DNA of 39,287 nt from an uncultured Acidobacteriota bacterium. Its GTDB lineage: Bacteria; Acidobacteriota; Vicinamibacteria; Fen-336. Shown here piece by piece: positions 14,448 to 30,811 of this stretch. Where the stretch lies: assembly GCA_902826455.1 (NCBI GenBank), contig CADEEV010000044.1, forward strand, positions 1-39,287, written 5' to 3'. Position numbers and translations under genes: made by a program. Position 1 is the first letter of the stretch. Each line of letters opens with the position of its first letter. The notes beneath the pieces were generated by a model. It saw only the letters and a list, made by a program, of their open reading frames with translations, was not told the DNA's origin and made no database searches.

Positions 14448-14472
14448 GGTCGTTCCAGGAGTGCGACGTACC

Positions 14473-14501
14473 GGGGCGGCCTTCGGGCCGCCCCTTTTTT
14501 T
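14473..14501 (+). terminator. Intrinsic terminator after the TonB-dependent receptor
   Basis: A perfect 9-bp stem GGGGCGGCC (14473-14481) pairs with GGCCGCCCC (14486-14494) around a TTCG tetraloop, which with the closing C-G is the ultrastable C-UUCG-G form. Seven T residues (14495-14501) follow on the plus strand. It begins 26 bp after the receptor stop and ends 3 bp before the convergent aldo/keto reductase stop. The T-tract is on the plus strand only, so it should act in the rightward direction. Confidence 0.95.
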
Positions 14502-14504
14502 CGT

Positions 14505-15497: not shown

Positions 15498-15559
15498 GAC
15501 ACGAGTTTATCCCCGGGACGCCATGACGCCAGCCCGACCGTTTGGTAGGCTCGCCCGCC

Positions 15560-16531: not shown

Positions 16532-17939
16532 GTACCGCCGCGTCGCGACGCTGCGCAGCGCCGCGGCGCTGCGTGAGCACCTGTCGACCCTCGGCGTGAC
16601 GCTGCCGCTCGACGAGCGTGTCGAAGCCTCGGGCCCGCTCGCAGCTCCTTTCAGGACGCCCGACGGCTTCCGCATCGGGAACCGCTTCTGCATCCACCCC
16701 ATGGAAGGCTGGGACGGCACGACGGACGGCCTTCCCACGGACCTCACGCGACGGCGCTGGGCGCGCTTCGGCCAGAGCGGCGCCAAGCTGGTCTGGGGCG
16801 GCGAGGCCGTGGCCGTGAGCCCGGAGGGCCGCGCCAACCCGAATCAGCTCCTGATGGCCCCGGCGACCCTGGGCGGCATCGAGCAGCTCCGGCGCGATCT
16901 CGTCGACGCCCATGCCGCCGCCTTCGGCCGGAGCGACGACCTGCTCGTGGGCCTGCAGCTCACCCACTCGGGCCGCTTCGCGCGGCCGCGCCAGAAGACG
17001 CAGGCCGAGCCCGTGATCCTGTATCACCATCCCGTGCTCGACCGGCGCCTCGGCCTCGGGCCCGAGAGCCCCGTGCTGAGCGACGCCGAGATCGAGCGCC
17101 TGATCGGCTGCTTCGTCGAGGCGGCGGCCATGGCCTGGCAGGCGGGCTACGCGTTCGTGGACGTGAAGCACTGCCACGGCTACCTCGGTCACGAGTTCCT
17201 GAGCGCCCGCCACCGGCCCGGGCCGTACGGCGGCAGCTTCGAGAACCGCACGCGCTTCCTGCGCGAGATCGTCGGCGGCATCCGCGCTCGCGTTCCGGAG
17301 CTGCGGATCGGCGTGCGGCTGTCGGCCTTCGACATCGTCCCGTATCGCACAGGCCCGGAAGGCCACGGCGTCCCCGAGACGGCTTCACTGCCCTACGACG
17401 CCGCCTTCGGACTCGAGGCCGACCTGGAGGACGCGACGCAGTTCCTGCGCCTGCTCGAGTCGCTCGGCGTGACGCTCGTGAACCTGACGGCAGGCAGCCC
17501 GTATTACAACCCGCACATCCAGCGGCCCGCGCTGTTCCCGCCCTCCGACGGCTACGGGCCGCCCGAGGATCCCTTCGTCGGCGTCGCGCGCCAGGTCGCG
17601 GCGACGGCCGAGCTGAAGCGGCGCTTCCCCGGCCTCACGATCGTGGGCTCGGCCTACAGCTACTTGCAGGAATGGCTGCCGAACGTCGCGCAGGCCGTGG
17701 TGGGCGGCGGCGGCGCCGACTTCGTGGGCCTCGGCCGCATGGTGCTGTCGTATCCCGAGCTTCCGGCCGATGTCCTCGCCGGACGCACGCTCACGCGACG
17801 CCTCATCTGCCGCACCTTCAGCGACTGCACCACGGCGCCGCGCAAGGGCCTGGTGTCCGGCTGCTATCCCCTCGACCACTTCTACAAGGAGCGGCCGGAG
17901 TTCGACGCCCTCGCGGGCTTCAAGAAGGCGGCCGGCTAG
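16524..17939 (+). CDS. NADH:flavin oxidoreductase of the Old Yellow Enzyme family
   Basis: 471 residues from ATG 16524, inside the end of the upstream gene. Family elements include [19 protein letters not shown] (51-69), [13 protein letters not shown] (143-155), and the substrate-site stretch [17 protein letters not shown] (214-230) followed by [18 protein letters not shown]. Relatives read HGAHGYLxxQFLS there. [21 protein letters not shown] near 391-411 is the FMN phosphate site. The C-terminus has Cys429, Cys435 and Cys447. The spacing mimics the 4Fe-4S motif of 2,4-dienoyl-CoA reductase-type members, but Phe432 stands in the second position, and the extra flavin/NADPH domains of that group are absent. 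The reaction is probably reduction of an activated C=C bond or a dehydrogenation; the substrate is unknown. It converges with the M19 dipeptidase gene 7 bp later. Confidence 0.88.
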
Positions 17940-17946
17940 TCCCCAT

Positions 17947-19143
17947 TCAGGGCGCGACCGTCGGAAGCGCCTGTCGTTCCACGGCGGCGAGCACGCGCAG
18001 GAAGTTCTCGCCCGCCAGCTTGCGCAGCTCGGCGTCGCTCCAACCGCGGCGCGCGAGCTCCTCGAACAGGGCCGGGAAGCGCGACGTGTCCTCGAGCCCG
18101 GCGATCCGGTAGGACTCCATGCCATCGAAGTCGGCGCCCAGGCCGACGTGATCGATCCCGGCGACCTTGCGGATGTGGTCGATGTGGTCGGCGACGTCGG
18201 TGAGCCTCACGGGCGGTGCGGGGTTCTCCGCCTCCCACACCGCCATGTCCTTGCGGGCCGCCGGCCGATCGTTTCCATGCCGCGCCATGAGCACCGCCCA
18301 GTACGCGTCGCCGCGCTCGTACCAGGCCCAGTGCTCGCGCGTCGTGAAGTACGCGACGAAGGTGACCATCACGATCCCGCCGTTCGTGGCGACGCGTCGC
18401 AGCAGCGCATCGGGCACGTTGCGCGGCGCCGGGCACAACGCCCGCGCGTTGGAATGCGAGAGGATGACGGGCGCCCGCGCCAGCTCGAGGACGTCGAACG
18501 CCGTCGCGTCGGCCGCGTGGGAGAGATCCACCAGCATCCCGAGGCGGTTCATCTCCCGCACCACCTCGACGCCGAACGGAGACAGGCCGTCGAAGCGCGC
18601 GGCGCCCGCGTTGGCGTCGCCGATGTCGTTGGTGTCGTCCCAGGTCAGCGTCATCGCCCGGACGCCGTGCCGGTACGCCGCCCTCAGCAGCGCCAGCGAG
18701 CCGCCGATCTGGTCGCCGCCTTCGAGCCCGAGGAGGGCGGCGATGCGGCCCGCCTGGAAGGCGGCGCGGAGACCGGCGCCGTCGGTCACCACCGTGAGGT
18801 CCTTGGGGTGACGGGCCGCCAGCTCGCGGAACAGGCCCGTCGAGTCGCGGATGCCTTTCTCGCGGTCCGCCTCGGCCATGAAGCCGACGGTGAAGATCGC
18901 CGCACCCACGCGGCCCGCGCGCAAGCGCGGCAGATCCACCTGCCCGACCGTGGGCTTCCCGATGTCGTAGGCGGTCGCCGGCAACAGGCCCTTCTCGTCC
19001 TCGGTGAGGTAGTGAAGGAGCAGGTCGTTGTGCCCGTCGACGAGCGGCGTCTGCTTCAACAAGGCGTCGATCCGCGAGCCGACGCTCACCGGAGCCGCAG
19101 CGGCTCCGCCCGACAGCAGGACGAGCAGGGAGATCGCGATCAC
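17947..19143 (-). CDS. Secreted membrane-dipeptidase-type zinc peptidase (M19)
   Basis: 398 residues from GTG 19143, beginning with a Sec signal (VIAISLLVLLSGGAAAAP). The M19 binuclear zinc ligands are all present: His38 and Asp40 in VDGHND, the bridging Glu141 in LGLEGGDQ, His209 in VDLSHAAD, His230 in ILSHSNAR, and the catalytic Asp338 in GLGADFDG. The length is usual for renal-dipeptidase-like enzymes, which cleave dipeptides with relaxed stereospecificity at the C-terminal residue (including D-residues), N-acyl-amino acids in some subgroups, or beta-lactams. It is last in the leftward run of exported hydrolases, 27 bp after the esterase, so it likely works outside the cytoplasm on the same material. 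It converges with the OYE-family gene. Confidence 0.95.
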   Translation of the reverse strand: MIAISLLVLLSGGAAAAPVSVGSRIDALLKQTPLVDGHNDLLLHYLTEDEKGLLPATAYDIGKPTVGQVDLPRLRAGRVGAAIFTVGFMAEADREKGIRDSTGLFRELAARHPKDLTVVTDGAGLRAAFQAGRIAALLGLEGGDQIGGSLALLRAAYRHGVRAMTLTWDDTNDIGDANAGAARFDGLSPFGVEVVREMNRLGMLVDLSHAADATAFDVLELARAPVILSHSNARALCPAPRNVPDALLRRVATNGGIVMVTFVAYFTTREHWAWYERGDAYWAVLMARHGNDRPAARKDMAVWEAENPAPPVRLTDVADHIDHIRKVAGIDHVGLGADFDGMESYRIAGLEDTSRFPALFEELARRGWSDAELRKLAGENFLRVLAAVERQALPTVAP

Positions 19144-19170
19144 CGGGCGCTCACGTTCCTGCGCCCATTA

Positions 19171-21201
19171 TCAGGGCTTCGACAAGTCGAAGGCGGCACC
19201 GTCCTGGAACAGGTACTGGACCGGCCAGGCCTCGCGCAGCGTCGCCAGGGCCTCGGACCAGCGGAAGGCGCCCGACCCGCCCCCGCGCAGCGTCGTGTCC
19301 GGCACCACGGCCACCACCGCGTCCGCGAACAGCGCGGCGTCTCCGCGCGGCGCCACCTGGAGCGCCTTCACGTGCAGGACCTCGCGCGCGAAGCGCGCCA
19401 CGATCTCGGCGTCCTCGAGCATCTCGAAGAGCTGCGGCCGGCCGCTCAGCAGGCCGTTGTAGGCCTGGTTCGCGAGAACACCCGAGAGCGGATTCGCGTA
19501 GGCCTCGGCCTCCCCGGCGGTGACGAGGGTCGGGTCGTCGATCGATTCGGCCTTGTAGCGCATGCGAGTCTCGCCGGCGCCACGGGTGTCGAACGAGAGC
19601 ACGTCGTGGCCGGCCTCGACCAGCTTCACGATCTCCCGCCACGTGTCCGGCCCGACCTTCCCGTCGAGAGCCAGGTCGAGGATGGTGGTGGTGTGTGCGG
19701 CCCCGTCGCCGTAGATCCGCAGCACCGGGATCGTCAGGTTCCCGCTGTGGCCCACCCGGTAGCGCTCGACGTGGATGCCGTCGCTGACCGTGGGGCCGAG
19801 CGCCTTCCAGGCGATCACGCCGCGGCTGCCGCGCTCCGCACTCTCGGCGACCACCGGCCAGCTCGCGACCCTGGCCGACTCGGCTCCGTCGTAGAGCGCC
19901 TTGAAATCCCTGGCGCCGCGCCTGGGCCGGGAGCGCGCGTCGTCACGGATGAGCTCGGGCAAGGAGCGGCCGGGAAGATCCACGCGCACCTGGCCGGTCG
20001 GCGTGCAGCGCAGGGTCTCGGCGTCGAGGAGCGCGACGGTCGCGAGGCCTTCGTGGACCGGCAGGCCGTTCCAGCGGTCGAGGAAGGCGAAGGCCGCGAG
20101 GCGGTTCTCGGGCGAGTAGGCGTGGCCGTGGTAGCCCTGCGTGAAGCCCACGCGGTCCGCCTTGCCGAAGCGACCGTACAGGGTTGACAGCTCGCGATAC
20201 GTGCGGCGCGCCCCTTCGATCGGCACGAAGTCCTTGATCGCCGACGCGATCACGAGCGGCCGCGGGTAGACGAGAGCCAGGAGGCCGGGATGGTCGATGC
20301 CTGCGGCGACGAGCCCGGAGGGATCCTGCTCGGGGTCCGTGTCGGGGTCCTCGAAGATCCGGTTCGCCATCCGCATCGGCAGCGCCGTGACGTAGCACGA
20401 CGGGGCCACGACCCCGATGCGCTCGTCGAGGGCGCCGATCCAGGCCGACTGCAGGCCGCCGCCGCTGGTGCCGGTGATCGAGATGCGCGCGGCATCGACC
20501 TCCGGCCGCGTCAGCAGGTAGTCGAGGGCCCGCATGCCGTCCCAGATCTCGTAGCGGCTCAAGCTCGTCCCCGCGAGGCACGCGAGGTTGCCGAGCACCG
20601 CGTGCTCGCCGCAGACGAGGTTGTAGCGGCTCTTCCTCGCGGCGGGGTCCCAATACTGGCTGCGCTCTCCCTGTCCCACGGGATCCCACGAGAGCACCAC
20701 GTAGCCGCGGGCCACGAGCTGGCCGGCGATCTCCTGGTAGTTCTTGAACGACTTGCCGTCGGGGGCGTGGCCGCACGGCAGCAGCACGGCCGGCCGCTTC
20801 GACACCGGGCCCTCGGGAACGTAGAGCAGCGCCGTCACGTGGAGGCCGGGCTGGCTCTCGAAGATCACCTTCTCGATGCGATATCCGGACATGGGCACGG
20901 TGCCGGTGATGCGGGCGTTGAGCGGCGTCCGGGTCTGCGGGAGCCCGCCGATCAGCTCGAGGAGCGCCGCCCGCATCGCCTTCTGCTTCGCGAGCAGCTC
21001 GGCCTCGGTGCGCAGGCCCGCGAAGGCCGCGAGGCGCGCGTCGTCCTGGCGCCAGGCGCGGTCGAGCTGGTGCTGCAGGAACGGCGTGATGCGCGCGCCC
21101 TCGGGCGGCTCCCCCAGCACCCGGAAGGCGTCCGCCGGAGGACCGTCCGCGGCCGCCGCGCCCGCCAGAGCCAGGAACGCCACGAGCATCGTCGTCTTCA
21201 T
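19171..21201 (-). CDS. Secreted alpha/beta hydrolase, acetyl-xylan-esterase/S9-like, two-lobed
   Basis: 676 residues from ATG 21201 in an ATGA overlap with the upstream amidase gene. The signal peptide is MKTTMLVAFLALAGAAAA. The first lobe is a typical alpha/beta hydrolase: a YVPEG and PAVLLPCGHAPDGKS entry strand, SWDPVGQGERSQYWD (171-185), the nucleophile elbow GTSGGG with Ser246, a candidate acid in SAIKDFVP (Asp324), and a histidine in GYHGHAYSPENR (His358 or His360). This resembles the AXE1/dienelactone-type esterases that deacylate glycans. The second half (about 390-676) keeps hydrolase-like strands (VLSFDTRGAGETRMRYK, VLHVKALQVAPRG) without an obvious GxSxG, so it may be a degenerate second hydrolase lobe. 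It stands in the leftward hydrolase operon of the central locus. Confidence 0.88.
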   Translation of the reverse strand: MKTTMLVAFLALAGAAAADGPPADAFRVLGEPPEGARITPFLQHQLDRAWRQDDARLAAFAGLRTEAELLAKQKAMRAALLELIGGLPQTRTPLNARITGTVPMSGYRIEKVIFESQPGLHVTALLYVPEGPVSKRPAVLLPCGHAPDGKSFKNYQEIAGQLVARGYVVLSWDPVGQGERSQYWDPAARKSRYNLVCGEHAVLGNLACLAGTSLSRYEIWDGMRALDYLLTRPEVDAARISITGTSGGGLQSAWIGALDERIGVVAPSCYVTALPMRMANRIFEDPDTDPEQDPSGLVAAGIDHPGLLALVYPRPLVIASAIKDFVPIEGARRTYRELSTLYGRFGKADRVGFTQGYHGHAYSPENRLAAFAFLDRWNGLPVHEGLATVALLDAETLRCTPTGQVRVDLPGRSLPELIRDDARSRPRRGARDFKALYDGAESARVASWPVVAESAERGSRGVIAWKALGPTVSDGIHVERYRVGHSGNLTIPVLRIYGDGAAHTTTILDLALDGKVGPDTWREIVKLVEAGHDVLSFDTRGAGETRMRYKAESIDDPTLVTAGEAEAYANPLSGVLANQAYNGLLSGRPQLFEMLEDAEIVARFAREVLHVKALQVAPRGDAALFADAVVAVVPDTTLRGGGSGAFRWSEALATLREAWPVQYLFQDGAAFDLSKP

Positions 21202-22457
21202 TCCGTGATCCCCCGATAGGTCTCGGGCCGGCGCTGCTTCAGCACGGCCGAATGCCAGTTTCCCACCCACGGCCGCAGCACCGGCTTCGACAGGTCGATC
21301 GCCTGCACCGCGGTGCCGTCGCCTTCGTTCTTCCAGGTCCGGACCCGGATCTCGCCCGCCGGGTCGATCACCGCGCTCGGCACGTCGTAGCCGCTCGTCA
21401 CGACCCAGACGCCGTTGTCCATGGCGCGCGAGCGGATCTGCGTGAGATCGCCGCCCCAGCCCGGCGCGAAAAGGATCTCCGCCCCGGCCAGCGTGAGCAC
21501 GCGCGCCGGCTCGTCGAAGGCCGTGTCGTGGCAGATCAGGATCCCGATCCGCCCGAAGTCGAGATCGAGGGGCTGGTAGACGTGTCCCGGCGAGAGACCG
21601 GCCTCGACCTCGCCGACCGGGACCTGCACCTTGCGATACGTGCCGGCAAGGGCGCCGTCGCGTCCGATCACGAACGCCGAGTTGTACACGGTCTCGCCCT
21701 GTCTCTCGTAGGCGCCGTAGAGCACGTACGCGTGCTGCTTCCGGGCCTGGGCCGCCAGGGCCTGGAAGGCGGCGCCGCGGGCCTCCTGCGCGGCGCCCAC
21801 GACGTCGAGGCCGGTGCCGATCGAGGTCAGGGCCTCCGGCAGCACGTAGATGTCGGGCTTCTGCGGGGCCGCGCGCTCCATGAGCGCCACGAAGGCGGCC
21901 ACGTTCGCCTCGGGAGTCGAGCGGCCGGACGGCCGCCAGTAGAGCGTCGCGATCCGCGCGACGCGCGACGGAACCGGGGACTGCGCGGCGAACGACACGG
22001 CGCCGAAGCTGACCCGGGCCCGCGGCGCCCACTGGAGCAGCAGGCTCACCTCCGCCTTCTCCGCGCCGGCCGGCGCCGTCAGCACCCCGTCGCAGACGGG
22101 ACGGCCGGCGCTGCCCAGGCCGGTGGCGACGTACTCGGGCGCCACCTCTTCCGCGACGCGGGCGCCCTTCCAGCGCACCTGGCAGACGACGCCGCGCTGC
22201 AGGCTGTCGAGGCCCTGGGCCGTCAGCTCGGCACGCAGCCGGTAGCTCTGGCCGCCCGCCACGGGGGCGTCGCGACGGAAGCCGCCGAAGACGGTGGCGA
22301 GGCCGCGGCCCGCCACCTCCAGCCGCCCGCCGTTGCTGGCATAGGCGGGCGCCAGGGCCGGACGCGGCGCGAACCGGCTCCAGCCCCCGTCCGGTGCGTC
22401 GGCCCGGAAGGCCACGAGGTTCTCGGCCGCGACGAGCGCGAGCACGGCGAGCAGCAC
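21198..22457 (-). CDS. Carbon-nitrogen hydrolase (nitrilase superfamily) with N-terminal beta-rich domain
   Basis: 419 residues from GTG 22457, one base after the upstream gene's stop. A short hydrophobic leader (VLLAVLALVAAE) suggests export. Residues about 12-160 are beta-rich and look like a carbohydrate-binding-type jelly roll (SYRLRAELTAQG, AEVSLLLQWAPRARVSFGAVSF). The rest is the nitrilase fold with the Glu-Lys-Cys triad: Glu208 in VLPEALTS, Lys276 in YRKVQVP, and Cys309 in ILICHDTAFDEPAR. Such enzymes hydrolyse amides or transfer acyl groups. An exported member fused to a sugar-binding-like domain fits removal of N-acyl or amide groups from a glycan, which is inference. The stop overlaps the esterase start (ATGA). 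Confidence 0.9.
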   Translation of the reverse strand: MLLAVLALVAAENLVAFRADAPDGGWSRFAPRPALAPAYASNGGRLEVAGRGLATVFGGFRRDAPVAGGQSYRLRAELTAQGLDSLQRGVVCQVRWKGARVAEEVAPEYVATGLGSAGRPVCDGVLTAPAGAEKAEVSLLLQWAPRARVSFGAVSFAAQSPVPSRVARIATLYWRPSGRSTPEANVAAFVALMERAAPQKPDIYVLPEALTSIGTGLDVVGAAQEARGAAFQALAAQARKQHAYVLYGAYERQGETVYNSAFVIGRDGALAGTYRKVQVPVGEVEAGLSPGHVYQPLDLDFGRIGILICHDTAFDEPARVLTLAGAEILFAPGWGGDLTQIRSRAMDNGVWVVTSGYDVPSAVIDPAGEIRVRTWKNEGDGTAVQAIDLSKPVLRPWVGNWHSAVLKQRRPETYRGITE

Positions 22458-22458
22458 G

Positions 22459-24024
22459 CTAGACCCCCTTGCGCCAGTTGGCGTCGCCCGCCGCCTTCAG
22501 GGTGACGCTGAGCGACCCGTCCGCGTTCACCGGCTGGGCGCAGGCCCAGCGCACCGGCCGGCGCACGCCGAAGCTCTCGATCTCCGCCTTGAGCCGCACT
22601 TCCTGGCCCTCCTGGCCCTGCGGCAGGACGAAGGACGCCTGGCGCAGCCGACCCGCGTACGGGTGGCCGGCGTCGAGGCCGCCCGCGACGCTCCAGCGGC
22701 CGTCGGGCGCGGCGACGCTCACGTGCAGGATCCCCGGCACGCCCGCGACGCCGTCGTTCGCGAAGGCGATCACGAGCTCCGCGGTGCCGTAGCGCTTGCG
22801 CTGCCAGATCCACGACGGACGCACGCGGTAGCCGATCCGCTGCCGCAGGTCCGCGAAGACGCGCGGGCGGGCCGCATCGTAGCGCGCGACGCCCTCGGCC
22901 TCGGTCCACAGCGACCAGTAGTTGCCGCCGAGGTCGAGGGTGTGGAGGACGGTGTTCTCGATGACGTCGACACCGGCGGCGTCGGTCTTGTAGTTGGGCG
23001 TGTCGGTCCGGTAGTGGCGGTGGTAACCGTCCTCCATGATCACGGCGAGCCAGGGCGGCCGGTTCGCGAGCTCCTCGATCTGGATCGGCTCGTCCAGGAT
23101 GATGCTGTCGGAGCGCAGCCAGGCGCCCGCACGCACCGCGTCGTCGTGGACCTGGTGGTTCCCGACCCCGCTGATGTCGGGTTGCGTGTTCACGGCGAGG
23201 GGCGTCTTCTTCCAGGTCTCGAGCTGCACGCGGGTCATGTCGACGAAGGTGCGCTCGGCGGTCAGGTAGTCCGGGAACGGGCTCGCGTAGTCGCTCACGT
23301 GGCCCTCGCCCCAGAAGCCGAACATCATCAGGTCCACGAACTCCACGAGCGGGTTGCCGTCGAACTCGGCGGCCAGCAGCCCGTTGAGATCGCGGAACGC
23401 CTTCTGGAACTCCGGATGGTCCGAGCGCGGCTCGACCCGCTTCGGCCCCGGCTTGCCGGCCTTGCGCTCCACCGTCACCGTCGGCACCTTGCCGAGCAGG
23501 TAGTCCGGGATCGAAAGGTGCGCGGGCTGGATCTCGGGGCTCGAGAGCTGGATGCGGAAGCCGACGCGCTTGCCGTGGCGCCTGGCCGCGTCGAACGTCG
23601 CGGCCCAGACCGGGTTCTTGTCGAGGCGGCCCGGCTGCGACTGCACGTCGCGCCAGTCGCAGCGGATGTAGAGGACGTCGGCCAGCGCCAGGCTCGCCAT
23701 GCGCTCGACGGCGTCCTCCAGCGTCTGCCGGCCGTCGCGCGCGGCCAGGGCCGGGCCGTTCTCCTCCCACGTGTAGCCGACGAGTCCCATGCCGAAGTTC
23801 GGCACCGGGCCACGGGCGGCCGTTGTGTTGAGGATCGTGTACCAGCCCTCGTCCTGGTCGATCCCGAAGGGGCCCTGGTTGAGACGCGTCGACGGCCGCG
23901 GCCCCGAACCGAAGTCGTGGCCCTGCCACAGGTGGGTCGGCACGTCGGCCGAAGCACGGCCTGCGGAGCCCGCCAGCAAGGAAACGGCCGCACCCGCCTT
24001 GATGAAGTCGCGCCTCGAGCTCAT
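22459..24024 (-). CDS. Tat-exported TIM-barrel, glycoside-hydrolase-like protein (DUF4832-like)
   Basis: 521 residues from ATG 24024 with a GGAGG site 4 nt upstream. The N-terminus is a clear Tat signal (SSRRDFIKAGAAVSLLAGSAG). Residues about 75-380 read as a glycosidase-like barrel: LADVLYIRCDWRDVQ (113-127), VGFRIQLSSPEI (154-165), VDLMMFGFWGEGH (230-242), PLAVNTQPDISG (275-286) and LAVIMEDGYHRHY (326-338). Glu240 in FWGEGH is the likely acid/base or nucleophile, as in FWGEWH of DUF4832-type putative glycosidases. A beta-sandwich follows from about 405 (TAELVIAFANDGVAGVPG), typical of that group. I cannot name a CAZy family or substrate. It is first in the leftward operon and sits under the consensus TATAAT and palindrome shared with the symporter operon, so it is probably co-regulated with sugar uptake. 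Confidence 0.78.
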   Translation of the reverse strand: MSSRRDFIKAGAAVSLLAGSAGRASADVPTHLWQGHDFGSGPRPSTRLNQGPFGIDQDEGWYTILNTTAARGPVPNFGMGLVGYTWEENGPALAARDGRQTLEDAVERMASLALADVLYIRCDWRDVQSQPGRLDKNPVWAATFDAARRHGKRVGFRIQLSSPEIQPAHLSIPDYLLGKVPTVTVERKAGKPGPKRVEPRSDHPEFQKAFRDLNGLLAAEFDGNPLVEFVDLMMFGFWGEGHVSDYASPFPDYLTAERTFVDMTRVQLETWKKTPLAVNTQPDISGVGNHQVHDDAVRAGAWLRSDSIILDEPIQIEELANRPPWLAVIMEDGYHRHYRTDTPNYKTDAAGVDVIENTVLHTLDLGGNYWSLWTEAEGVARYDAARPRVFADLRQRIGYRVRPSWIWQRKRYGTAELVIAFANDGVAGVPGILHVSVAAPDGRWSVAGGLDAGHPYAGRLRQASFVLPQGQEGQEVRLKAEIESFGVRRPVRWACAQPVNADGSLSVTLKAAGDANWRKGV

Positions 24025-24056
24025 GGAACCTCCGCTTGACCGGGTGAACGGAAGAG

Positions 24057-24062
24057 ATTATA
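24057..24062 (-). promoter_or_regulatory. Consensus -10 box for the leftward hydrolase operon
   Basis: Read on the minus strand these bases are TATAAT, a perfect sigma-70-type -10 hexamer, 33 bp before the ATG at 24024. The GC content of this 84-bp intergenic region is far below that of the neighbouring genes. The -35 position (about 24080-24085) is not a good TTGACA match and lies inside the palindrome at 24069-24088, suggesting that regulator binding controls access. A weaker plus-strand TTTAAT at 24079-24084 could serve the symporter operon. Confidence 0.6.
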
Positions 24063-24068
24063 AGCAAT

Positions 24069-24088
24069 CGCAATTTCATTTAATTGCG
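24069..24088. promoter_or_regulatory. Perfect 7-6-7 palindrome, candidate operator between divergent operons
   Basis: CGCAATT (24069-24075) is mirrored by AATTGCG (24082-24088) around the spacer TCATTT. It lies in the middle of the only AT-rich stretch of the central locus, over the -35/spacer region of the leftward TATAAT promoter and 20 bp before the symporter GTG. A dimeric repressor or activator of GntR, LacI or similar type would fit the 20-bp size. No regulator gene is within the window, so the protein would be encoded elsewhere. The site is seen directly; its function is inferred. Confidence 0.6.
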
Positions 24089-24108
24089 TTTACTGAGGAT
24101 TCCGCCCC

Positions 24109-25761
24109 GTGACCCACTTCGGCGCCCTCGACTGGATCCTGACCGCGCTCTCCCTCGTGGGAACGTTGTGGATCGGTCTCCTCACCCGTCGCTACGTCGG
24201 CCGCATCGAGGACTATCTCGTGGCCAGCCGCGGCATGGGCGCCTACGTCGGCACCGCCTCCCTCGTCTCGACCGAGATCGGCATCATCACCTACATGTAC
24301 CAGGCCCAGTTCGGGTTCCTGGCGGGCTTCTCGGCGTTCATCGTCGGCGTCATCACGATCGCGATCTGCTATTTCGTCGGCAAGACCGGCTTCGTGATCA
24401 CGAAGCTGCGCGAGATGGAAGTGATGACGGTGCCCGAGTACCTCGAGCGCCGCTACTCCCGCAACGTGAGGGTCATGGCCGGCCTGATCATGGCCGTGGG
24501 CGGCTCGCTCAACCTCGGGATCTTCCCGATCATCGAGGCGCGCTTCCTCACGATCACGACCGGCATTCCCGCCCAGTACGTGAACTGGACCATGGCGACG
24601 CTGCTGCTGATCGCCCTCGTCTACACCGCGATCGGCGGCATGGTCTCGCTCATCGTGACGAACTACGTGCAGTACGTGCTGCTCGCCTTCGGCACGGTCG
24701 TCGTGACCGTCGCGGGCCTGTACTCGGTCGGCTGGGGCACGATGACGCGCAGCGTCACCGAGCACATGGACGGCCGCGGCTTCAATCCCTTCGCCGACCT
24801 CGACGTCGGCCCCGCGTTCATCCTGTGGCAGATCCTGCTCTGGGTGGCGCTCATGACGGTGTGGCAGTCGGCCGCGATGCGCTCGTTCTCGGCGAAGGAC
24901 GCCGCCACGAGCCGCAAGGTCTTCACGCTCACGTCCTTCCTCTTCCTGGGCCGCGCGGTGCTGCCGATGGCCTGGGGCATCGCGGCGTTCGCGTTCTTCT
25001 GGGGCCAGGCGCAGCCGGTGCTGCCGGGCCCCGGCGAGACGCCGGTCGACCACATGCAGCGCCTCGACCGCGACCTCGCGAGCGGCTTTGCACCCCGCCT
25101 GGCCAAGGGCGAGGTGGCGACCCTGCTGCCCGAGATCGATCGGCTGGAGCGGCTCTCCGCCGCGGCCACGGTCCCCGAAGCGAAACCCATCGCCGCGCGG
25201 GCCAAGGGCTACCGCGAGGAGGTCGCGATGGTCGCGATGCCGTGGATGATCGCGACCGTCCTGCCCACGGGTCTCGTCGGCCTGATGATGGCCGGCATGC
25301 TGGCGGCCTCGGTATCGACCTACGCCGGCTACTTCCTGGGCTGGAGTGCGATCCTCTCGCAGGACGTGGTGACGCCGCTGCTGAAGCGGCCCTTGTCCGA
25401 GGCCGGCAAGCTCCGGCTGACGCGCGTGACGATCGTGCTGCTGACGGTCTTCATCATGATCTGGAGCCTCGTCTACCACGTGCCGGGACCGGCCTTCTTC
25501 TACCTGCAGGTGACCGCGAACCTGTTCATGGCGCCGACCCTGATCACGATCGTCGCCGGTCTCTACTGGGCGCGCGCCTCCTCGGCCGGCGCCTACCTCT
25601 CGTTCGTGCTGGGCGCCCTGTCGTCCCTCGGCTACCTGATCCCCGGACTCGACCTCAGCGTCGCCACCGCCGGCAACGCGAGCTGGGTGCTGGGTCTCGC
25701 CGGGCTCGTGCTGGGCTCCCTCGTCTTTCCCGACCGCGCCGCGAAGGAGGTGACGTCGTGA
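24109..25761 (+). CDS. Sodium:solute symporter (SSS family)
   Basis: 550 residues from GTG 24109 with GAGGA 9 nt upstream. The protein is almost entirely transmembrane helices of the LeuT-like SSS fold. Family marks include the early RRYVGRIEDYLVASRGMGAYVGTASLVSTEIG (27-58), where SSS proteins have SxEDYxxAGRxxG and the unwound TM1, and the TAIGGMVSLIVTNYVQYVLL region (173-192; family consensus GGxxAVxxTDxxQ). A hydrophilic insert of about 70 residues (about 300-372) separates two helices. SSS proteins import sugars, sialic acid, amino acids or carboxylates with Na+; downstream kinase and isomerase genes favour a sugar or amino-sugar substrate. It is the first gene of the rightward operon, diverging from the hydrolase operon, and its stop overlaps the start of a 49-residue membrane protein. 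Confidence 0.95.
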   Translation: MTHFGALDWILTALSLVGTLWIGLLTRRYVGRIEDYLVASRGMGAYVGTASLVSTEIGIITYMYQAQFGFLAGFSAFIVGVITIAICYFVGKTGFVITKLREMEVMTVPEYLERRYSRNVRVMAGLIMAVGGSLNLGIFPIIEARFLTITTGIPAQYVNWTMATLLLIALVYTAIGGMVSLIVTNYVQYVLLAFGTVVVTVAGLYSVGWGTMTRSVTEHMDGRGFNPFADLDVGPAFILWQILLWVALMTVWQSAAMRSFSAKDAATSRKVFTLTSFLFLGRAVLPMAWGIAAFAFFWGQAQPVLPGPGETPVDHMQRLDRDLASGFAPRLAKGEVATLLPEIDRLERLSAAATVPEAKPIAARAKGYREEVAMVAMPWMIATVLPTGLVGLMMAGMLAASVSTYAGYFLGWSAILSQDVVTPLLKRPLSEAGKLRLTRVTIVLLTVFIMIWSLVYHVPGPAFFYLQVTANLFMAPTLITIVAGLYWARASSAGAYLSFVLGALSSLGYLIPGLDLSVATAGNASWVLGLAGLVLGSLVFPDRAAKEVTS

Positions 25762-25907
25762 GCTGGATGGCGCTGTGGACGCTCGTGTTCTTCGTGACCC
25801 TCGCGACGTTCGCGGTGATCTCGGCGCTGATCGCGATCAAGGGCATCGACGAGATCAAGGAGCTGTTCCGGGAGCTCGAAGCGTCGAAGACGCGTCGCGA
25901 CAAGTAG
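25758..25907 (+). CDS. Small symporter accessory protein, 49 aa, single TM
   Basis: Starts at GTG 25758 in a GTGA overlap with the symporter stop. The ideal Shine-Dalgarno GGAGGTGA (25747-25754) lies inside the symporter's last codons. The 49 residues form one hydrophobic helix (about 5-27, ALWTLVFFVTLATFAVISAL) followed by an acidic/basic amphipathic tail (GIDEIKELFRELEASKTRRDK). Small single-pass proteins encoded immediately after SSS genes are known in several phyla and annotated as symporter small accessory proteins. They are thought to be subunits or stability factors, analogous to small partners of other SSS carriers. The overlap implies near-stoichiometric synthesis with the carrier. 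The gene is too short for many gene finders. Confidence 0.85.
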   Translation: MSWMALWTLVFFVTLATFAVISALIAIKGIDEIKELFRELEASKTRRDK

Positions 25908-25917
25908 GAGGACCGAC

Positions 25918-26226
25918 GTGGCCCACGTGCTCCGCTTCGTGCAACGCTTCCGCCCCGCCGACGAGAGGGCCTTCCTGGCCCTCGAGGCGCAGTTCGCGGC
26001 CCTCGAGCGCAAGAAGGGCTGGCCGCGCGGGCGGCGCATGCGCCCCTACGCCGGGCGCGAGCCGGTCCACACCCTGGTCTGGGAGTGCGAGTTCGAGAGC
26101 CTCGCCGGAGCCCAGGCGGCGCTCGCCCGCATGGCCGGGGATCCGGGCCACGAGAAGCTCCTCAAGAAGCAGGTGCCGTATTTCCTCGACGCCTACACCG
26201 AGATCTACGTGGTGCTCGACCTGTGA
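25918..26226 (+). CDS. Dimeric alpha/beta-barrel (ABM/NIPSNAP-like) protein
   Basis: 102 residues from GTG 25918, with GGAGG 8 nt upstream. The pattern is a ferredoxin-like dimeric barrel: strand HVLRFVQRFR, an ADERAFLALEAQFAALERKKG helix, strand VHTLVWECEF, an SLAGAQAALARMAGDPGHEKLLKK helix and a final strand TEIYVVLDL. The central VWECEFESLAGAQAALARMA and the DPG position resemble NIPSNAP and antibiotic-biosynthesis-monooxygenase-like folds. No catalytic residue set is evident. In sugar operons, small proteins of this fold include mutarotases such as rhamnose mutarotase, so anomer or tautomer handling of the imported compound is one hypothesis; substrate binding or a structural role is equally open. 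The stop overlaps the NagB-like start (GTGA). Confidence 0.78.
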   Translation: MAHVLRFVQRFRPADERAFLALEAQFAALERKKGWPRGRRMRPYAGREPVHTLVWECEFESLAGAQAALARMAGDPGHEKLLKKQVPYFLDAYTEIYVVLDL

Positions 26227-27101
26227 CGCGCGCCGAGCTGCTCGAGTGGTGCCGCGTTCCGGTCGACGCTCTCGTCGGCCACGCGGCGCTGCGCATCCCG
26301 TTCCGGATGGTGGCGGACTCGGTCGAGATGGGCGCGCTCATGGCGCGCGAGCTGGTCGAGGCCATCGAGGCGGCGAATGCCGCAGGGCGGCCGTACCGGG
26401 CGATCGTGCCGTGCGGGCCGGCGGCCTGGTACGAGCCCTGGACCCAGCTCGTGAACGCGCGGCGCGTGTCGCTCGCCTCGCTCCACGTCTTCCACATGGA
26501 CGAGTGCCTCGACTGGCAGGGGCGGCTCCTGCCCCGCAACCATCCCTACAACTTCCGGACGTTCATGGAGCAGCGCTTCTACGGCGGGATCGCTCCGGCG
26601 CTCAACGTGCCCGAAGCGCAGCGTCACTTCCTCACTCCCGCGAGCATGGGCCGCGTGGCCGAGGCGATCGCCGCCGCGCCGATCGACCTGTGCCTCGGCG
26701 GCTGGGGCCAGGACGGCCACGTGGCCTACAACCAGGCCCGCCGCAACGCCTACGACGCCCTCGACGTCGAGCGGCTGGCGGCGTCCACGATCCGCGTCCA
26801 GGACAACAACCCCGACACGATCCTGGCCCTCGCCCAGCGCACGTTCGGCGCGGCCTACCAGCTCGCGCCGCCGATGTCGGTGACCCTGGGCATGAAGGAG
26901 TGCCTGTCGGCCGCGAAGGTCCGCCTCTTCAGCGACACCGGTGCCTGGAAGCAGACGGCCCTGCGCGTGGCGCTCTTCTCGGAACCGACGGCCGAGTACC
27001 CGATGACGTTGCTGCAGCGCCATCCCGATGCGCTGCTCACCGCCACCCGGGACACGGCGCGGCACCCCGTGGCGGAGCATCCCGGCTGGGAGCTCGCGTG
27101 A
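26223..27101 (+). CDS. NagB-like glucosamine-6-phosphate isomerase/deaminase homologue with altered active site
   Basis: 292 residues from GTG 26223. It follows the NagB/6-phosphogluconolactonase fold: a PCGPAAWYEPW phosphate-loop region (63-73), LHVFHMDECLDWQGR (87-101) with Asp93 where NagB has the enolising LDEY aspartate, HPYNFRTFM (107-115; NagB HPxSYxxFM), LGGWGQDGHVAYNQARRN (158-175), and MSVTLGMKECLSAAKVRLF (218-236). NagB reads GGxGxDGHIAFNEP in the fourth of these. Asp164 and His166 are kept but the catalytic Glu148 of E. coli NagB is Gln171 here. That Glu pairs with the His in ring opening, so chemistry or substrate may differ from GlcN6P. It is longer than NagB (about 265). It overlaps both neighbours by 4 nt, between the barrel protein and the sugar kinase, which implies use of a phosphorylated sugar made by that kinase. 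Confidence 0.85.
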   Translation: MTRAELLEWCRVPVDALVGHAALRIPFRMVADSVEMGALMARELVEAIEAANAAGRPYRAIVPCGPAAWYEPWTQLVNARRVSLASLHVFHMDECLDWQGRLLPRNHPYNFRTFMEQRFYGGIAPALNVPEAQRHFLTPASMGRVAEAIAAAPIDLCLGGWGQDGHVAYNQARRNAYDALDVERLAASTIRVQDNNPDTILALAQRTFGAAYQLAPPMSVTLGMKECLSAAKVRLFSDTGAWKQTALRVALFSEPTAEYPMTLLQRHPDALLTATRDTARHPVAEHPGWELA

Positions 27102-28117
27102 CGCTTCGCTACACGAAGCTGATCGGCGTCGGCGGCATCGGCGCGGGCCTCTTGTTCACCCTCGAGGGCGACCACGACCTGGGCCGCAACGAGAGCCGGC
27201 CGGCGCGCCTCGAGGACGCCCGCGACTACTGCAAGCTCCACATCGTCACCCACTATCCGGCCCGCCTGGCGAGCGCCCGCGGCCTCCGCGTACTGCCCGT
27301 CGGCAAGATCGGCGCCGACGAGACAGGCCGGCGCCTGGAGCAGGAGATGTCGGCCGCCGGCATGGACACCCGCTTCCTCAAGAAGCTCAGCTCGGCGCCG
27401 ACGATGTTCAGCGTCTGCTTCCAGTATCCCGACGGCAGCGGCGGCAACCTGACCGCCAGCGACTCCGCGGCGTCGCGGCTGAAGCCGGCCGACCTCGACC
27501 GGGTCGAGTCGCTGCTGGACTCCGCGACCATCGCTCTCGCCGCCCCGGAAGTGCCCCTCGAGACCCGGCTCCGGCTGCTCGCGATGGCGACGGGGCGCGG
27601 CGCCCTCCGTGTCGCTTCGTTCACGCCGGGCGAGCTCGCGACGCCCGCCGTGCGCGCGGCCCTCGCCCAGGTGGATCTCCTCGCGCTCAACGAGGACGAG
27701 GCCGCGGCCCTGAGCGGCGCGCGGCGTGACAGGGGCGAGCCTGGCCCCTTCCTGGAGGCCTGCCGTGCGGCCTTCGCGGCGGCGAACCCGGCGGGCAGCC
27801 TCGTCGTCACCCTCGGCGCCGACGGCGCCCACGGCTATGCGCAGTGCCGCTGGGTCCACGTCGCCGCTCCCCGGCTCGCGGTGCGCAGCACGGCGGGCGC
27901 CGGCGACGCTCTGCTGGGCGGCGTCCTCACGGGCCTCGCCCTGGACATGCCCTTCGACGACGCCCTCGAGCTCGGCACGCTGCTCGCGGCCTTCAAGGTC
28001 ACGTCGCCCCACACGATTCCGCCCGAGGTCGACCGGCCCCTGTTGCAATCCTTCGCGGCGGTCCGCGAGATCCCGCTGTCCCCCGCCCTCGTGCGTTTCC
28101 TCTCGGAGCCCCGATGA
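27098..28117 (+). CDS. PfkB-family carbohydrate kinase
   Basis: 339 residues from GTG 27098 (GTGA overlap). Ribokinase-fold signatures are visible: GGIGAGLLFTLEGDHDLGRNESR (12-34) in place of the usual substrate-binding GGxxxDxxxx start, LPVGKIGADETGRRLEQEM (66-84), LLALNEDEAAAL (194-205) as the N-x-x-E motif, VVTLGADGAHGY (236-247), and the anion-hole/catalytic signature STAGAGDALLGGVL (264-277) with base Asp270. Serine replaces the usual Asp of DTxGAGD. PfkB enzymes phosphorylate ribose, fructose, 2-keto-3-deoxygluconate, nucleosides, N-acetylgalactosamine and others with ATP. The N-terminal lid region is atypical, so I do not name a substrate. The position between a NagB-like isomerase and an M20 amidohydrolase points to an amino- or acylamino-sugar. 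Confidence 0.92.
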   Translation: MTLRYTKLIGVGGIGAGLLFTLEGDHDLGRNESRPARLEDARDYCKLHIVTHYPARLASARGLRVLPVGKIGADETGRRLEQEMSAAGMDTRFLKKLSSAPTMFSVCFQYPDGSGGNLTASDSAASRLKPADLDRVESLLDSATIALAAPEVPLETRLRLLAMATGRGALRVASFTPGELATPAVRAALAQVDLLALNEDEAAALSGARRDRGEPGPFLEACRAAFAAANPAGSLVVTLGADGAHGYAQCRWVHVAAPRLAVRSTAGAGDALLGGVLTGLALDMPFDDALELGTLLAAFKVTSPHTIPPEVDRPLLQSFAAVREIPLSPALVRFLSEPR

Positions 28118-29391
28118 CACTCAAGGACGCGCGGCGCCTGCTGCGACCGCTGCGGGAGGAGATCGTCGGCCTCGCCCAGGCCCTGGTGCGCGTCGACAGC
28201 GTCGCGATCCCCCCGGACGGTCATGAGACGAAGGCCCAGAAGGTGCTGCGCGACCGGCTGAAGCCCTACGGGCTCGACGTCGAGCTCTACGACACGGGCT
28301 TCCTCGAGCGCTCGCGGCATCCCTTCGTGCGCCGCGACCGGAACTACAAGGGACGCCACAACCTGATCGCGCGCCGCTCGGGCACGGGCGGCGGCCGCAG
28401 CCTGCTGCTGAGCGGCCACGTCGACACGGTGCCGGTGGGCCATCAGCCCTGGAAGCACGACCCGTGCTCCGGCACGATCGAGCGCGGCCGGCTCCACGGC
28501 CGCGGCAGCTGGGACATGAAGAGCGGCCTCGCCGCCCAGTTCGCGGCCGCCATGGCGCTCGCGAAGGCGGGCGTGCGCCTGCGGGGCGACCTCCTGTGCG
28601 AGTCGGTGGTGGACGAAGAGTTCGCCGGCGGTGGCGGCACCCTCGCGGGACGCCTGCGGGGCGACAACGCCGACGCGTGCGCGATCGCCGAGGGCACCAA
28701 CTACTCCGTCGTGAGGGCGACCCGCGGCGGCCACTTCTTCGACATCGTCTGCAAGGCCGGCGACCCCATGGGTTACTTCTCGAAGGAGGAGGTCGTGAGC
28801 CCGGCGATCCCGATGGGCCGCCTGCTGGGCTGGATCGACACCTGGGTGAAGAAGCGCAAGGGCGTCCGGCGCGGCGCGACCTACGCCGCGTTCCCGGACC
28901 CGGCGCCGGTCCAGGTCCTCGCGGTCGAAGCCAACCGCTTCGATCCCGACGTGCCCTGGAGCGTGCCCCTCGAGGCCCGCATCCGCGTCTACTTCCAGTT
29001 CCTGCCCCACGAGAACGTGACGGCCGTCGTGAAGACGGTCGAGGCGTCGCTCCACTCCTTCTGCCGGCGCGATCCCTTCTTCCGCAAGTACCCGATCGAG
29101 ATCCGGTACCTCGTGGACCCGCCGCTGCTGGGCCACGAGCTCCCGGCCGCCCACGCGTGGACGCGCTGCTTCCACGGCGCGGCCACGGCCGTGGTCGGGG
29201 ACGAGGCGCTGCTCTCCGCCTCGGAGTGGCCCTGCGACGCCTTCCTCGCCCACCGCGAGTTCGGCATCCCGACGCTGCTGTTCGGCCCGAAGGGCGCCGG
29301 CAGCCACAACGCGAACGAGTACGTCGAGGTCGCCTCGGTGCTGAGGACGGCCGAGGTCTACCTCGCGGCCACGCTCGAGTGGTGCGCCTAG
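28114..29391 (+). CDS. M20-family zinc amidohydrolase (ArgE/DapE/ACY1 type)
   Basis: 425 residues from ATG 28114 (ATGA overlap with the kinase). The M20 catalytic signature is complete: LSGHVDTVPVG with metal ligand His102 and Asp104, GRGSWDMKSGLAA with bridging Asp134, ESVVDEEFAGGG with general base Glu168 and ligand Glu169, the IAEGT ligand Glu193, and a C-terminal GAGSHNANEYV histidine. The middle carries the dimerisation domain. No signal peptide is seen, so it acts in the cytoplasm, unlike the exported amidase across the promoter. M20 enzymes deacylate N-acyl-amino acids, cleave dipeptides or hydrolyse carbamoyl groups. In this operon a role as N-deacylase of the imported compound, in place of NagA, is a reasonable hypothesis; peptide side-chain removal is the main alternative. 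Confidence 0.92.
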   Translation: MTLKDARRLLRPLREEIVGLAQALVRVDSVAIPPDGHETKAQKVLRDRLKPYGLDVELYDTGFLERSRHPFVRRDRNYKGRHNLIARRSGTGGGRSLLLSGHVDTVPVGHQPWKHDPCSGTIERGRLHGRGSWDMKSGLAAQFAAAMALAKAGVRLRGDLLCESVVDEEFAGGGGTLAGRLRGDNADACAIAEGTNYSVVRATRGGHFFDIVCKAGDPMGYFSKEEVVSPAIPMGRLLGWIDTWVKKRKGVRRGATYAAFPDPAPVQVLAVEANRFDPDVPWSVPLEARIRVYFQFLPHENVTAVVKTVEASLHSFCRRDPFFRKYPIEIRYLVDPPLLGHELPAAHAWTRCFHGAATAVVGDEALLSASEWPCDAFLAHREFGIPTLLFGPKGAGSHNANEYVEVASVLRTAEVYLAATLEWCA

Positions 29392-29394
29392 GCC

Positions 29395-29979
29395 CTACTT
29401 CGCCGCGGGCACGGCGCTGAACTGGACCTTCACGAGCAGGGTGCTGCCGACACCGACGCCCAGGTATTCGGGCGGCGTGATGCCGAAGTCGGGCATGACC
29501 AGCCGGAACTCCGCCTGCACGCGCTTGCCGGAGGCTTCGGCTCGGACGTCCACCGTGCCCTGGACCGGCTTCTTCACGGCGTGCAGCAGCAGCGTGCCCT
29601 CGAAGGGGGTGCGGCCCTGGAACGCCTCGTCCCCCGCGTCCTTCAGGACGATATCGGAGAGCACGGCCTTGTCGTAGCCCGCCCCCTTCGCGACCTCGAG
29701 GTACTTGTCGCGCAGGTGCTGGTTGCGCAGGGTGATGCCGGTGTCGATCGTCTGCAGGTCCATGACGATCTCGCCCTGCAGGCGCGCCGGCTTGCCGGGC
29801 ACGAGGGTGAGGCTGCCAGTGAGGTTCGGGTTGGTGGCGGTGAACGCGCCGCCCGGCTTGAGCGGCACGACGATGTCGGCCCGCGGCCGCTCGACCCGCC
29901 ACGTGGGCTCGGCCGCTCCGGCCGCCACCGACGCAAGAAGGATGACGACCGCGCTCGTCTTTTCGCGCCCGTGCCCCAA
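29395..29979 (-). CDS. YceI family periplasmic lipid-binding protein
   Basis: 194 residues from TTG 29979; the start is supported by GAGGAGG 5-6 nt upstream and by the signal peptide that follows (KTSAVVILLASVAAGAAEP). The lipocalin-like YceI pattern is clear: VERPRADIVVPLKPGGAFTATN, GEIVMDLQTIDTGITLRNQHLRDKYLEVAK (family consensus VxVDxxSIDTGxxxRDxHLxSxDFFD), and a beta-rich C-terminus (RVQAEFRLVMPDFGI, TLLVKVQFSAVP). YceI proteins bind polyisoprenoids or other amphiphiles in the periplasm and are often stress-linked. The usual FDxxxFP segment is replaced by KYLEVAKGAGYD. It ends 3 bp from the convergent M20 gene. The 148 bp upstream hold its promoter, though no clear boxes are visible, and no U-tracted terminator for the araD-like gene. 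Confidence 0.9.
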   Translation of the reverse strand: MGHGREKTSAVVILLASVAAGAAEPTWRVERPRADIVVPLKPGGAFTATNPNLTGSLTLVPGKPARLQGEIVMDLQTIDTGITLRNQHLRDKYLEVAKGAGYDKAVLSDIVLKDAGDEAFQGRTPFEGTLLLHAVKKPVQGTVDVRAEASGKRVQAEFRLVMPDFGITPPEYLGVGVGSTLLVKVQFSAVPAAK

Positions 29980-30127: not shown

Positions 30128-30811
30128 CTACTTCTGGCCGTAGGTCGTGTGGTAGCGCGTCCACCACTTGGCGATCTCGTCGGTCGGCATCGCCGCCACG
30201 GGACCGAGGGAGCGCGCGAGCCACAGCGTCTTCGCGACGTCCTCGACCATGACGGCCGCCTTCAGGGCCTGGGCCGGCGTCGCGTCGAACGTGAAGACGC
30301 CGTGGCGCGCCAGCAGGATCGCGGGACCCTGGTTCCGGTGCTTCAGGATCGCCTCGGCGATGTGGTCGCCCTCGTTGTCCGTGTAGGGCGCGCACGGCAC
30401 CTCGGCGCCGAACTCGTCGGCCATGGCCGTGAGCGCGCACGGGATCGGGAGGCCGGCGGCGGCGAAGGCCGTCGCGTAGTTCGAGTGGGTGTGGACGATC
30501 CCACCGAGCTTCGGATCCTTCCCGTAGAGCAGCACGTGGTGGATCGTGTCGACGCTGGGCCTGAGCGGGCTCGCGATGCGATCCGGCACGGCGCTCGCGG
30601 GCACCGGGGCGCCGGTCAGGTCCACGACGCACAGGGCCTCGGGCGTCAGGGTGTCGTAGTCGACGCCGCTGGGCTTGATCAGCACCAGGCCGGTCTCCCG
30701 GTCGAGGCCGCTCGCGTTGCCGCTGTGCATCGTGACGAGGCCGGCCTTCGGCAGCGTCACGTTGGCGCGGTGGACCTCGCGGCGCAGCGCCGCGAAGCGC
30801 GCCTCGCTCAC
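30128..30811 (-). CDS. araD: Class II aldolase family, L-ribulose-5-phosphate 4-epimerase-like
   Basis: 227 residues from GTG 30811, overlapping the GH42-like gene's stop by GTGA. It aligns along its length with AraD (231 aa). The substrate loop reads MHSGNASG (28-35; AraD GNVS), followed by LIKPSGVDYDTL (44-55) and PSVDTIHHVLLYG (85-97). The zinc ligands are His107 and His109 in IVHTHSNYAT and His170 in LARHGVF. The epimerase-specific Asp132 (ADEFGAEVPC) and a Tyr near the C-terminus in the TYGQ ending (Tyr224) are also present. AraD interconverts L-ribulose-5-P and D-xylulose-5-P by retro-aldol cleavage. It has no signal peptide, although its upstream partners are secreted, so it would handle the intracellular sugar released by them. 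A related epimerase or aldolase specificity (UlaF, SgbE) cannot be excluded. Confidence 0.87.
   Translation of the reverse strand: MSEARFAALRREVHRANVTLPKAGLVTMHSGNASGLDRETGLVLIKPSGVDYDTLTPEALCVVDLTGAPVPASAVPDRIASPLRPSVDTIHHVLLYGKDPKLGGIVHTHSNYATAFAAAGLPIPCALTAMADEFGAEVPCAPYTDNEGDHIAEAILKHRNQGPAILLARHGVFTFDATPAQALKAAVMVEDVAKTLWLARSLGPVAAMPTDEIAKWWTRYHTTYGQK

Follow-up and report, generated by a model that had tools for sequence, protein, structure and literature searches.

A widespread NagB-like/PfkB gene pair and its possible role in the catabolism of N-acyl-galactosamine-type sugars

Introduction

What substrate is consumed by the enzymes encoded in the central part of a 39,287-nucleotide stretch of DNA from an uncultured Acidobacteriota bacterium (Vicinamibacteria, Fen-336; contig CADEEV010000044.1; hereafter the window)? 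In this part, genes for four exported hydrolases (A to D) diverge from genes for a sodium:solute symporter (E), a 49-amino acid (aa) transmembrane (TM) protein (F), a dimeric alpha/beta-barrel (DABB) protein (G), a NagB-like protein (H), a PfkB-family kinase (I), and an M20 amidohydrolase (J). The first-pass annotation had read these ten genes as two divergent operons for the catabolism of an amino sugar or other sugar. All ten are present, with slightly corrected coordinates (Table 1), and so are the two operons, but a third operon beyond the interval then considered had been missed. This minus-strand operon (30128-36479) encodes a CocE/S15 hydrolase (N), a GH42-like glycosidase (M), and an AraD-type epimerase (L), with 4-bp overlaps. 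On the plus strand, overlaps of 4 bp join E to F, G to H, H to I, and I to J, and a gap of 10 bp separates F and G. We tentatively suggest that the locus is a mobile catabolic module for an N-acyl-galactosamine-type sugar.

Results

NagB-like relatives of H are encoded by at least 140 stretches (GTDB contigs), and the loci of the best 80, with 60-72% identity and from 12 or more phyla, were compared with the window. These 80 come from Acidobacteriota, Paenibacillus and other Bacillota, Actinomycetota, Chloroflexi, Planctomycetota, and Armatimonadota, as well as from Bacteroidota/Balneolota, Spirochaetes, Verrucomicrobia/Lentisphaerae, Ignavibacteria, Coatesbacteria, and Raymondbacteria. A PfkB gene adjoins the NagB-like gene in 79 of the 80 loci (tblastn), PfkB open reading frames lie on the NagB strand within 4 kb in 80/81 cases with a median gap of -3 bp, and the distances of the two proteins are correlated over 71 loci (Mantel r 0.725; 0 of 2000 permutations reached this value, the permutation maximum being 0.169). 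The constant core of the system is this pair, to which putative amide cleavage and C4 epimerisation are attached, and not the M20 gene and the symporter. Among the partners expected for the Q171 form of the NagB-like protein, PfkB accompanies it in these 79 loci and M20 only in part (10 loci), whereas the counterpart of the small TM protein forms part of the symporter in one relative.

The distribution of the pair is patchy. No NagB-like orthologue was found among 40 near relatives of the host (best match 29%), and among 396 genomes of the same phylum only two others, one of which is Acidobacteriota bin48 (CP070717; L042/L090), encode the protein, at 64-67%. Such patchy spread at high identity suggests that the NagB-PfkB module has been transferred horizontally. 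A lack of conservation in related genomes, which would have refuted the first-pass reading, was not seen: equivalent sets of genes are found again in other phyla, and the grouping therefore goes beyond chance. Three Paenibacillus loci share with the window D (56-58%), the GH42-like M (31-33%, ~1330 aa), G, H, and I; a Brocadiia locus (L060) shares C (41%, 417 aa), G, H, I, and the M20 gene (60%); and an Acidobacteriota locus (G183/L090) shares E and F, H, I, the M20 gene (61%), and a DUF5107 protein (48%, 937 aa). This joint recurrence supports the view that the sets form one catabolic system. In Paenibacillus koleovorans (L080) the gene set is M20-NagB-PfkB-DABB. Alignment of unrelated neighbour proteins served solely for the domain tally.

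The active sites of both core proteins are conserved, albeit in altered form. In E. coli NagB, catalysis depends on D72 and the D141-H143-E148 group, the substrate phosphate is held by R172/K208 and the 41-TGGT-44 loop, and S151/K160/Y254 form part of the allosteric site. When 81 NagB-like sequences were compared with this enzyme (MG1655), D72, D141, H143, R158, R172, and K208 were found to be kept in 81/81. E148 is replaced by Gln in all of them (Q171 in H), so that the changed active site first noticed in the window protein is a fixed feature of the family; S151 is likewise replaced by Arg and K160 by Gln throughout, and the phosphate loop is always two residues shorter. Since the catalytic and phosphate-binding residues are kept, H is expected to act on a phosphosugar by NagB-type isomerisation, with altered ring-opening and without allosteric control by N-acetylglucosamine-6-phosphate. 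In the comparison of 71 kinases with RbsK, E143 is kept and the catalytic Asp of GAGD is present in 70/71, whereas ribokinase D16 and the GGKGAN motif are absent from all 71, and R30, E32, R34, D43, C45, K46, and H48 are nearly invariant. Families were assigned by hidden Markov model searches against model cut-offs. H is below the cut-off of the NagB equivalog TIGR00502 (59.9 bits; cut-off 236.9), and I is below that of the ribokinase model TIGR02152 (77.5 bits; cut-off 299.65) and weakly matches fructoselysine-6-kinase (38.5 bits). No NCBIfam equivalog covering the NagB-like protein, the kinase, the M20 protein, or D was passed.

Next to the core pair, M20 proteins are found in 10 loci, PIG-L-like proteins in 9, and Amidohydro_2 proteins in 25, and none of these occur together, although ~7 co-occurrences are expected under independent placement (probability ~8e-5, kinship ignored). 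This exclusivity is suggestive of three unrelated metal hydrolases being interchangeable in one slot, and only suggestive because the relatives are not independent. The proposal that an M20 enzyme takes the place of a deacylase gains from the PIG-L-like and Amidohydro_2 proteins which hold this slot elsewhere. Where characterised, PIG-L proteins are amino-sugar N-deacetylases; the PIG-L-like family here lies below Pfam detection, its HxDD and HxDH motifs having been read by eye, and neither these proteins nor the Amidohydro_2 members gave a useful match among PDB sequences. Orthologues of J (55-61%) occur in L090, L060, and L063, and J itself passed none of the named M20 equivalogs (ArgE, DapE, PRK06915 etc.; best 222 bits, cut-off 428). 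In agreement with the earlier claim that NagA is lacking, a TIGR00221 search of the whole host genome (5.26 Mb, 100% complete) found no canonical NagA over the cut-off (best 36 bits, cut-off 225.65). A survey of Amidohydro_1 in 14 genomes was uninformative, as the family is everywhere.

Relatives of the AraD-like epimerase are encoded in 15 loci, and these proteins keep all zinc ligands, T116, D120, R221, and Y229 almost throughout, so that their zinc and phosphate sites are intact. L scores below both PRK06557 (240 bits, cut-off 251) and TIGR00760 (146 bits, cut-off 389). In one locus (L102), a GatZ/KbaZ-like gene follows PfkB. An amidase and an epimerase are encoded in one operon in L132 and L115, and both are also present in the window. 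The AraD-type epimerase and the GH42-like operon shift the expected pathway from a glucosamine-like to a galacto-like one. The parallel with NagK-NagA-NagB in the first-pass annotation had been drawn without these genes.

Orthologues of the symporter E (48-50%) are divergent from NagB in G183/L090. In alignment, F matches the C-terminal tail of the G183 symporter with a score of 63, whereas 2000 shuffles reached at most 54. Because an F-like segment is thus joined to the symporter in G183/L090, the 49-aa F is most likely a small subunit of the SSS symporter. G occurs in ~32 of the 80 loci, usually directly beside NagB-PfkB. Its place is taken by an aldose-1-epimerase in L087, L096, and L117 (Aldose_epim in L096, the others being its homologues) and by a DUF4432 protein in L092, which hints at a mutarotase role. 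The hint was not confirmed by the predicted model of G (predicted local distance difference test score 95), as its nearest folds are NIPSNAP (Z 12.8) and LsrG (Z 11.3); RhaM was absent from the 50 listed fold matches.

The exported hydrolases are linked to the core to different degrees. D is found in 8 of the 396 same-phylum genomes and H in 3, two of them in common (Fisher p 0.001), and D is followed by an adjacent B in L150 (D 65%, B 51%). D had been described as an exported GH-like barrel; its twin-arginine translocation (Tat) signal bears out the export, but no match was obtained with Pfam glycosidase models or PDB sequences. The fold of D was set aside, since its low-confidence model, for which Foldseek lists GH35 galactosidases, is too poor for use. 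Distant relatives of B (28-30%) occur in 3/80 loci. No relative of the M19 gene A is present in the other 80 loci, which makes A the weakest member of the system; its inclusion as a dipeptidase of the pathway thus found no conserved link.

Table 1. Genes of the window from position 17947 to its end, with the basis of each assignment (signal peptides were read by eye)
Gene	Product	Coordinates	Strand	Basis
A	Exported M19 membrane-dipeptidase family protein	17947-19143	-	PF01244 332 bits; signal by eye
B	Exported two-domain alpha/beta hydrolase, AXE1-like	19171-21201	-	AXE1 29.8 bits, cut-off 21
C	Exported carbon-nitrogen hydrolase (CN_hydrolase), N-terminal beta domain	21198-22457	-	PF00795 106 bits
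D	Probable (beta/alpha)8 glycosidase with Tat export signal	22459-24024	-	Tat signal weakly by Pfam
E	SSS-family sodium:solute symporter	24109-25761	+	PF00474 (SSF) 103 bits
F	49-aa single-TM protein, predicted small symporter subunit	25758-25907	+	Alignment to symporter tail
G	Dimeric alpha/beta-barrel protein (DABB)	25918-26226	+	Predicted fold; present in ~32/80 loci
H	Predicted NagB-like phosphosugar isomerase/deaminase, E148Q form	26223-27101	+	PF01182 30.6 bits, gathering score 27
I	PfkB-family sugar kinase without ribokinase GGKGAN motif	27098-28117	+	PF00294 110 bits, cut-off 25.8
J	M20 amidohydrolase in putative deacylase slot	28114-29391	+	PF01546 93.8 bits, cut-off 24.6
	YceI-like gene	29395-29979		Between M20 gene J and third operon
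L	Predicted AraD-type class II ketose-phosphate 4-epimerase	30128-30811	-	PF00596 140 bits
M	Exported 1308-aa GH42-like glycosidase	30808-34734	-	PF02449 24.8 bits (cut-off 21), PF08532 31.2 bits (cut-off 25.8)
N	Exported CocE/NonD (S15) hydrolase, operon with L and M	34731-36479	-	TIGR00976 461 bits
O	DUF5107-TPR protein, truncated at the window end	36491-39287	-	48% over 937 aa to L090 copy

Upstream of gene A, the window (11466-17939) encodes a TonB-type receptor, an aldo/keto reductase, a protein with weak similarity to DHDPS, and one resembling Old Yellow Enzyme. Other loci have a relative of the reductase (51%) or receptors of this type near NagB-PfkB, and the locus may therefore reach into this region too.

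Several other neighbourhoods deserve mention. In Terriglobia (L059, L066, L069, L071, and related loci), a second divergent set is conserved beside NagB-PfkB, comprising a FucI-like isomerase, an FGGY kinase, a DeoC/LacD-type aldolase, an Amidohydro_2 protein, a GH36/31-like glycosidase, and an APC-like permease. A sulfoquinovose pathway was considered and rejected, as the best match of a FucI-like neighbour, SftI, reached only 78.6 bits (cut-off 700). In two phyla, genes resembling MttB (trimethylamine methyltransferase family, by eye) lie near NagB-PfkB (L102, 8329-9912; L132, 15402-16838). An Acidobacteriota genome (L044, 7966-10472) contains a 35% NagB-like relative beside a LarA-like racemase/epimerase, PfkB, M55-like and M24-like peptidases, and alcohol dehydrogenases (all assigned by eye). 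This is probably a further sugar pathway based on the NagB-like subfamily. On two Haloarcula plasmids (L054 and L055), two divergent NagB-like paralogues, with HGH and TGH replacing DGH in the active site, lie at ~11-13 kb, next to genes for GlpR, an aldolase, and a kinase-like protein. On the Vibrio nigripulchritudo conjugative plasmid NZ_AP027051.1 (L053, 152.6-158.5 kb), a NagB-like protein with 37% identity to H and without D141 is encoded with a nucleoside hydrolase, an adenosylhomocysteinase-like protein, an adenosine deaminase, a ribokinase, and a CNT nucleoside transporter, apparently as a distinct pathway for an unusual nucleoside. Nucleoside salvage of this kind was rejected as a model for the window because the Vibrio kinase keeps the ribokinase motif (GGKG.N) and its NagB-like partner lacks D141.

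Discussion

The combination of an amidase slot, a kinase, a NagB-type enzyme, and a C4 epimerase makes an N-acyl sugar of the galacto type the simplest substrate. The order of steps, each reaction, and the substrate are what we infer from these genes, as follows. The exported hydrolases D, M, C, B, and N would release a small N-acylated sugar from a glycoconjugate for import by the SSS symporter and its predicted small subunit, and a cytosolic amidase (M20 here; PIG-L-like or Amidohydro_2 in other bacteria) would remove the N-acyl group. The PfkB kinase would phosphorylate the sugar at its terminal hydroxyl, and the NagB-like enzyme would open the ring and move the carbonyl from C1 to C2, giving a ketose phosphate, with release of ammonia in the case of an amino sugar. 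The AraD-type enzyme would then invert C4, so that the product could enter glycolysis; the route would run from galactosamine-6-phosphate through tagatose-6-phosphate to fructose-6-phosphate.

Some circumstantial observations agree with such a substrate. Hexosaminidase families are encoded nearby in a few loci (GH20 in L058, L064, and L108; GH109 genes in L094), as would suit N-acetylhexosamines. A lyase of Paenibacillus koleovorans, the source of L080, breaks galactosaminic bonds in the Sphaerotilus sheath (PMC5613140), and this sheath contains galactosamine (PMC11087309). A GH114 polygalactosaminidase guessed by eye in L129 was discarded, having no Pfam support.

Several points weigh against this interpretation. 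The invariant Gln at the position of E148 could mean a non-amino substrate, and the nearest named families of kinase I are ribokinases. The models of the AraD family are named for L-ribulose-5-phosphate, and the L132 copy passes the cut-off of that name. In most loci, the retrieved stretch contains no epimerase gene. As for the deacylase slot, the exclusivity test ignores kinship, L102 with a PF02585 (PIG-L) gene at 2 kb and an M20 gene at 9 kb is a possible exception, and Amidohydro_2 proteins often act as lactonases or decarboxylases rather than as amidases. Finally, the GH109 annotation is not specific.

The main rival to galactosamine is a pentose such as L-arabinose, which we regard as unlikely, though clearly worth weighing. 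In a kinase-first route, PfkB would phosphorylate the aldopentose at O5, the NagB-like enzyme would isomerise it without deamination to L-ribulose-5-phosphate, AraD would form D-xylulose-5-phosphate, and the hydrolases would attack arabinosylated plant glycoproteins. An AraD-family epimerase with all its active-site residues, represented in L132 by a copy above the AraD cut-off, would be at home in this route, and so would a ribokinase-like kinase; moreover, a distant NagB-like relative stands beside a ribokinase in the Vibrio nucleoside operon, and in L091 genes of the proline racemase and DAO oxidase families come after the pair, as in hydroxyproline use. However, the exclusive amidase slot is left without a role, D16 and GGKGAN are lacking in 71/71 kinases while the Vibrio kinase keeps GGKG.N, and no arabinosidase family was found among the ~110 neighbours scanned, of which the singletons were not all listed.

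It is improbable that the substrate is a sugar-amino acid or sugar-peptide conjugate (Amadori/Heyns type or peptidyl-amino sugar), imported, trimmed by M20, M24, or M19 enzymes, phosphorylated by an FrlD-like PfkB kinase, and cleaved by a NagB-like deglycase. Such a route would account for the peptidase-type neighbours (M19, M20, and S15 here; M24 in L133), the amino-acid-permease-like genes of ~12 Terriglobia loci (by eye), and the weak fructoselysine-6-kinase match, but neither the PIG-L-like nor the Amidohydro_2 members are peptidases, homologues of FrlB and FrlC were not recognised, and the known deglycases belong, to our knowledge, to the SIS family. Least of all do we expect a chance assembly of independent genes, a sugar kinase pair beside unrelated hydrolases (e.g. 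a nucleoside kinase and a plain dipeptidase), since the M19 gene without relatives and the varying deacylase and transporter types that speak for it are opposed by shared sets in distant phyla, co-variation, tight 4-bp overlaps, and loss of the ribokinase motif, which contradict it for H, I, G, D, J, L, and M and let it survive only for A.

The N-acyl-galactosamine reading is assembled from known folds, and its logic resembles that of the Nag and Aga pathways. Like the Nag pathway (NagK/NagE, NagA, NagB), the system combines a kinase, a predicted amide hydrolysis, and a NagB-fold enzyme on a phosphosugar with the core catalytic residues kept; unlike it, NagA is absent, the kinase is of the PfkB family, E148 is changed to Gln, two residues are missing from the phosphate loop, the allosteric site is not preserved, and a putative C4 epimerase is attached. 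With the Aga/Gam pathway (AgaK or phosphotransferase system, AgaA, AgaS/AgaI, tagatose-6-phosphate kinase, GatYZ/KbaYZ), it would share the use of N-acyl-galactosamine via tagatose-6-phosphate. H, however, is neither AgaS, an SIS family protein, nor AgaI, which keeps E148; an epimerase would replace the second kinase and the aldolase, and the deacylases are different. The textbook N-acetylgalactosamine route runs through AgaS and a kinase-aldolase branch via tagatose-6-phosphate (PMC12118421). C4 inversion of a ketose phosphate has a counterpart in GatZ/KbaZ, which interconvert tagatose-6-phosphate and fructose-6-phosphate (PMC11907403) and have a relative after PfkB in L102, whereas the window has an AraD-type enzyme with a predicted epimerase role. 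The L-arabinose pathway AraBAD also has an AraD-type epimerase, but here PfkB stands in place of the FGGY kinase AraB and a NagB-like protein in place of the isomerase AraA, and the amidase slot is added. In the fructoselysine operon frlABCD, a PfkB kinase likewise stands beside an enzyme that cleaves the C-N bond of a sugar phosphate, but FrlB is an SIS-family protein, and neither FrlB nor FrlC was seen here.

No paper describing this gene set was found in the literature covered, which excludes most subscription journals. We put forward only as a doubtful proposal, less probable than the substrate class itself, a horizontally spread route that dispenses with NagA/AgaA, tagatose-6-phosphate kinase, and aldolase, and uses three non-homologous free-sugar amidases, a PfkB kinase of a new kind acting on amino sugars, an E148Q paralogue of NagB serving as galactosamine-6-phosphate deaminase/isomerase, and an AraD-type tagatose-6-phosphate 4-epimerase.

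In summary, a gene pair without a named function in Pfam or NCBIfam is present in more than 10 phyla and would add a route for the carbon and nitrogen of amino sugars (or the carbon of aldoses) that would concern soil, sediment, and gut bacteria. It would provide two enzyme families that can be assayed at once, a test of the NagB mechanism through the naturally occurring E148Q exchange, and a clear example of one slot filled by three unrelated hydrolases, and annotations such as "hypothetical protein" and "ribokinase" would be corrected.

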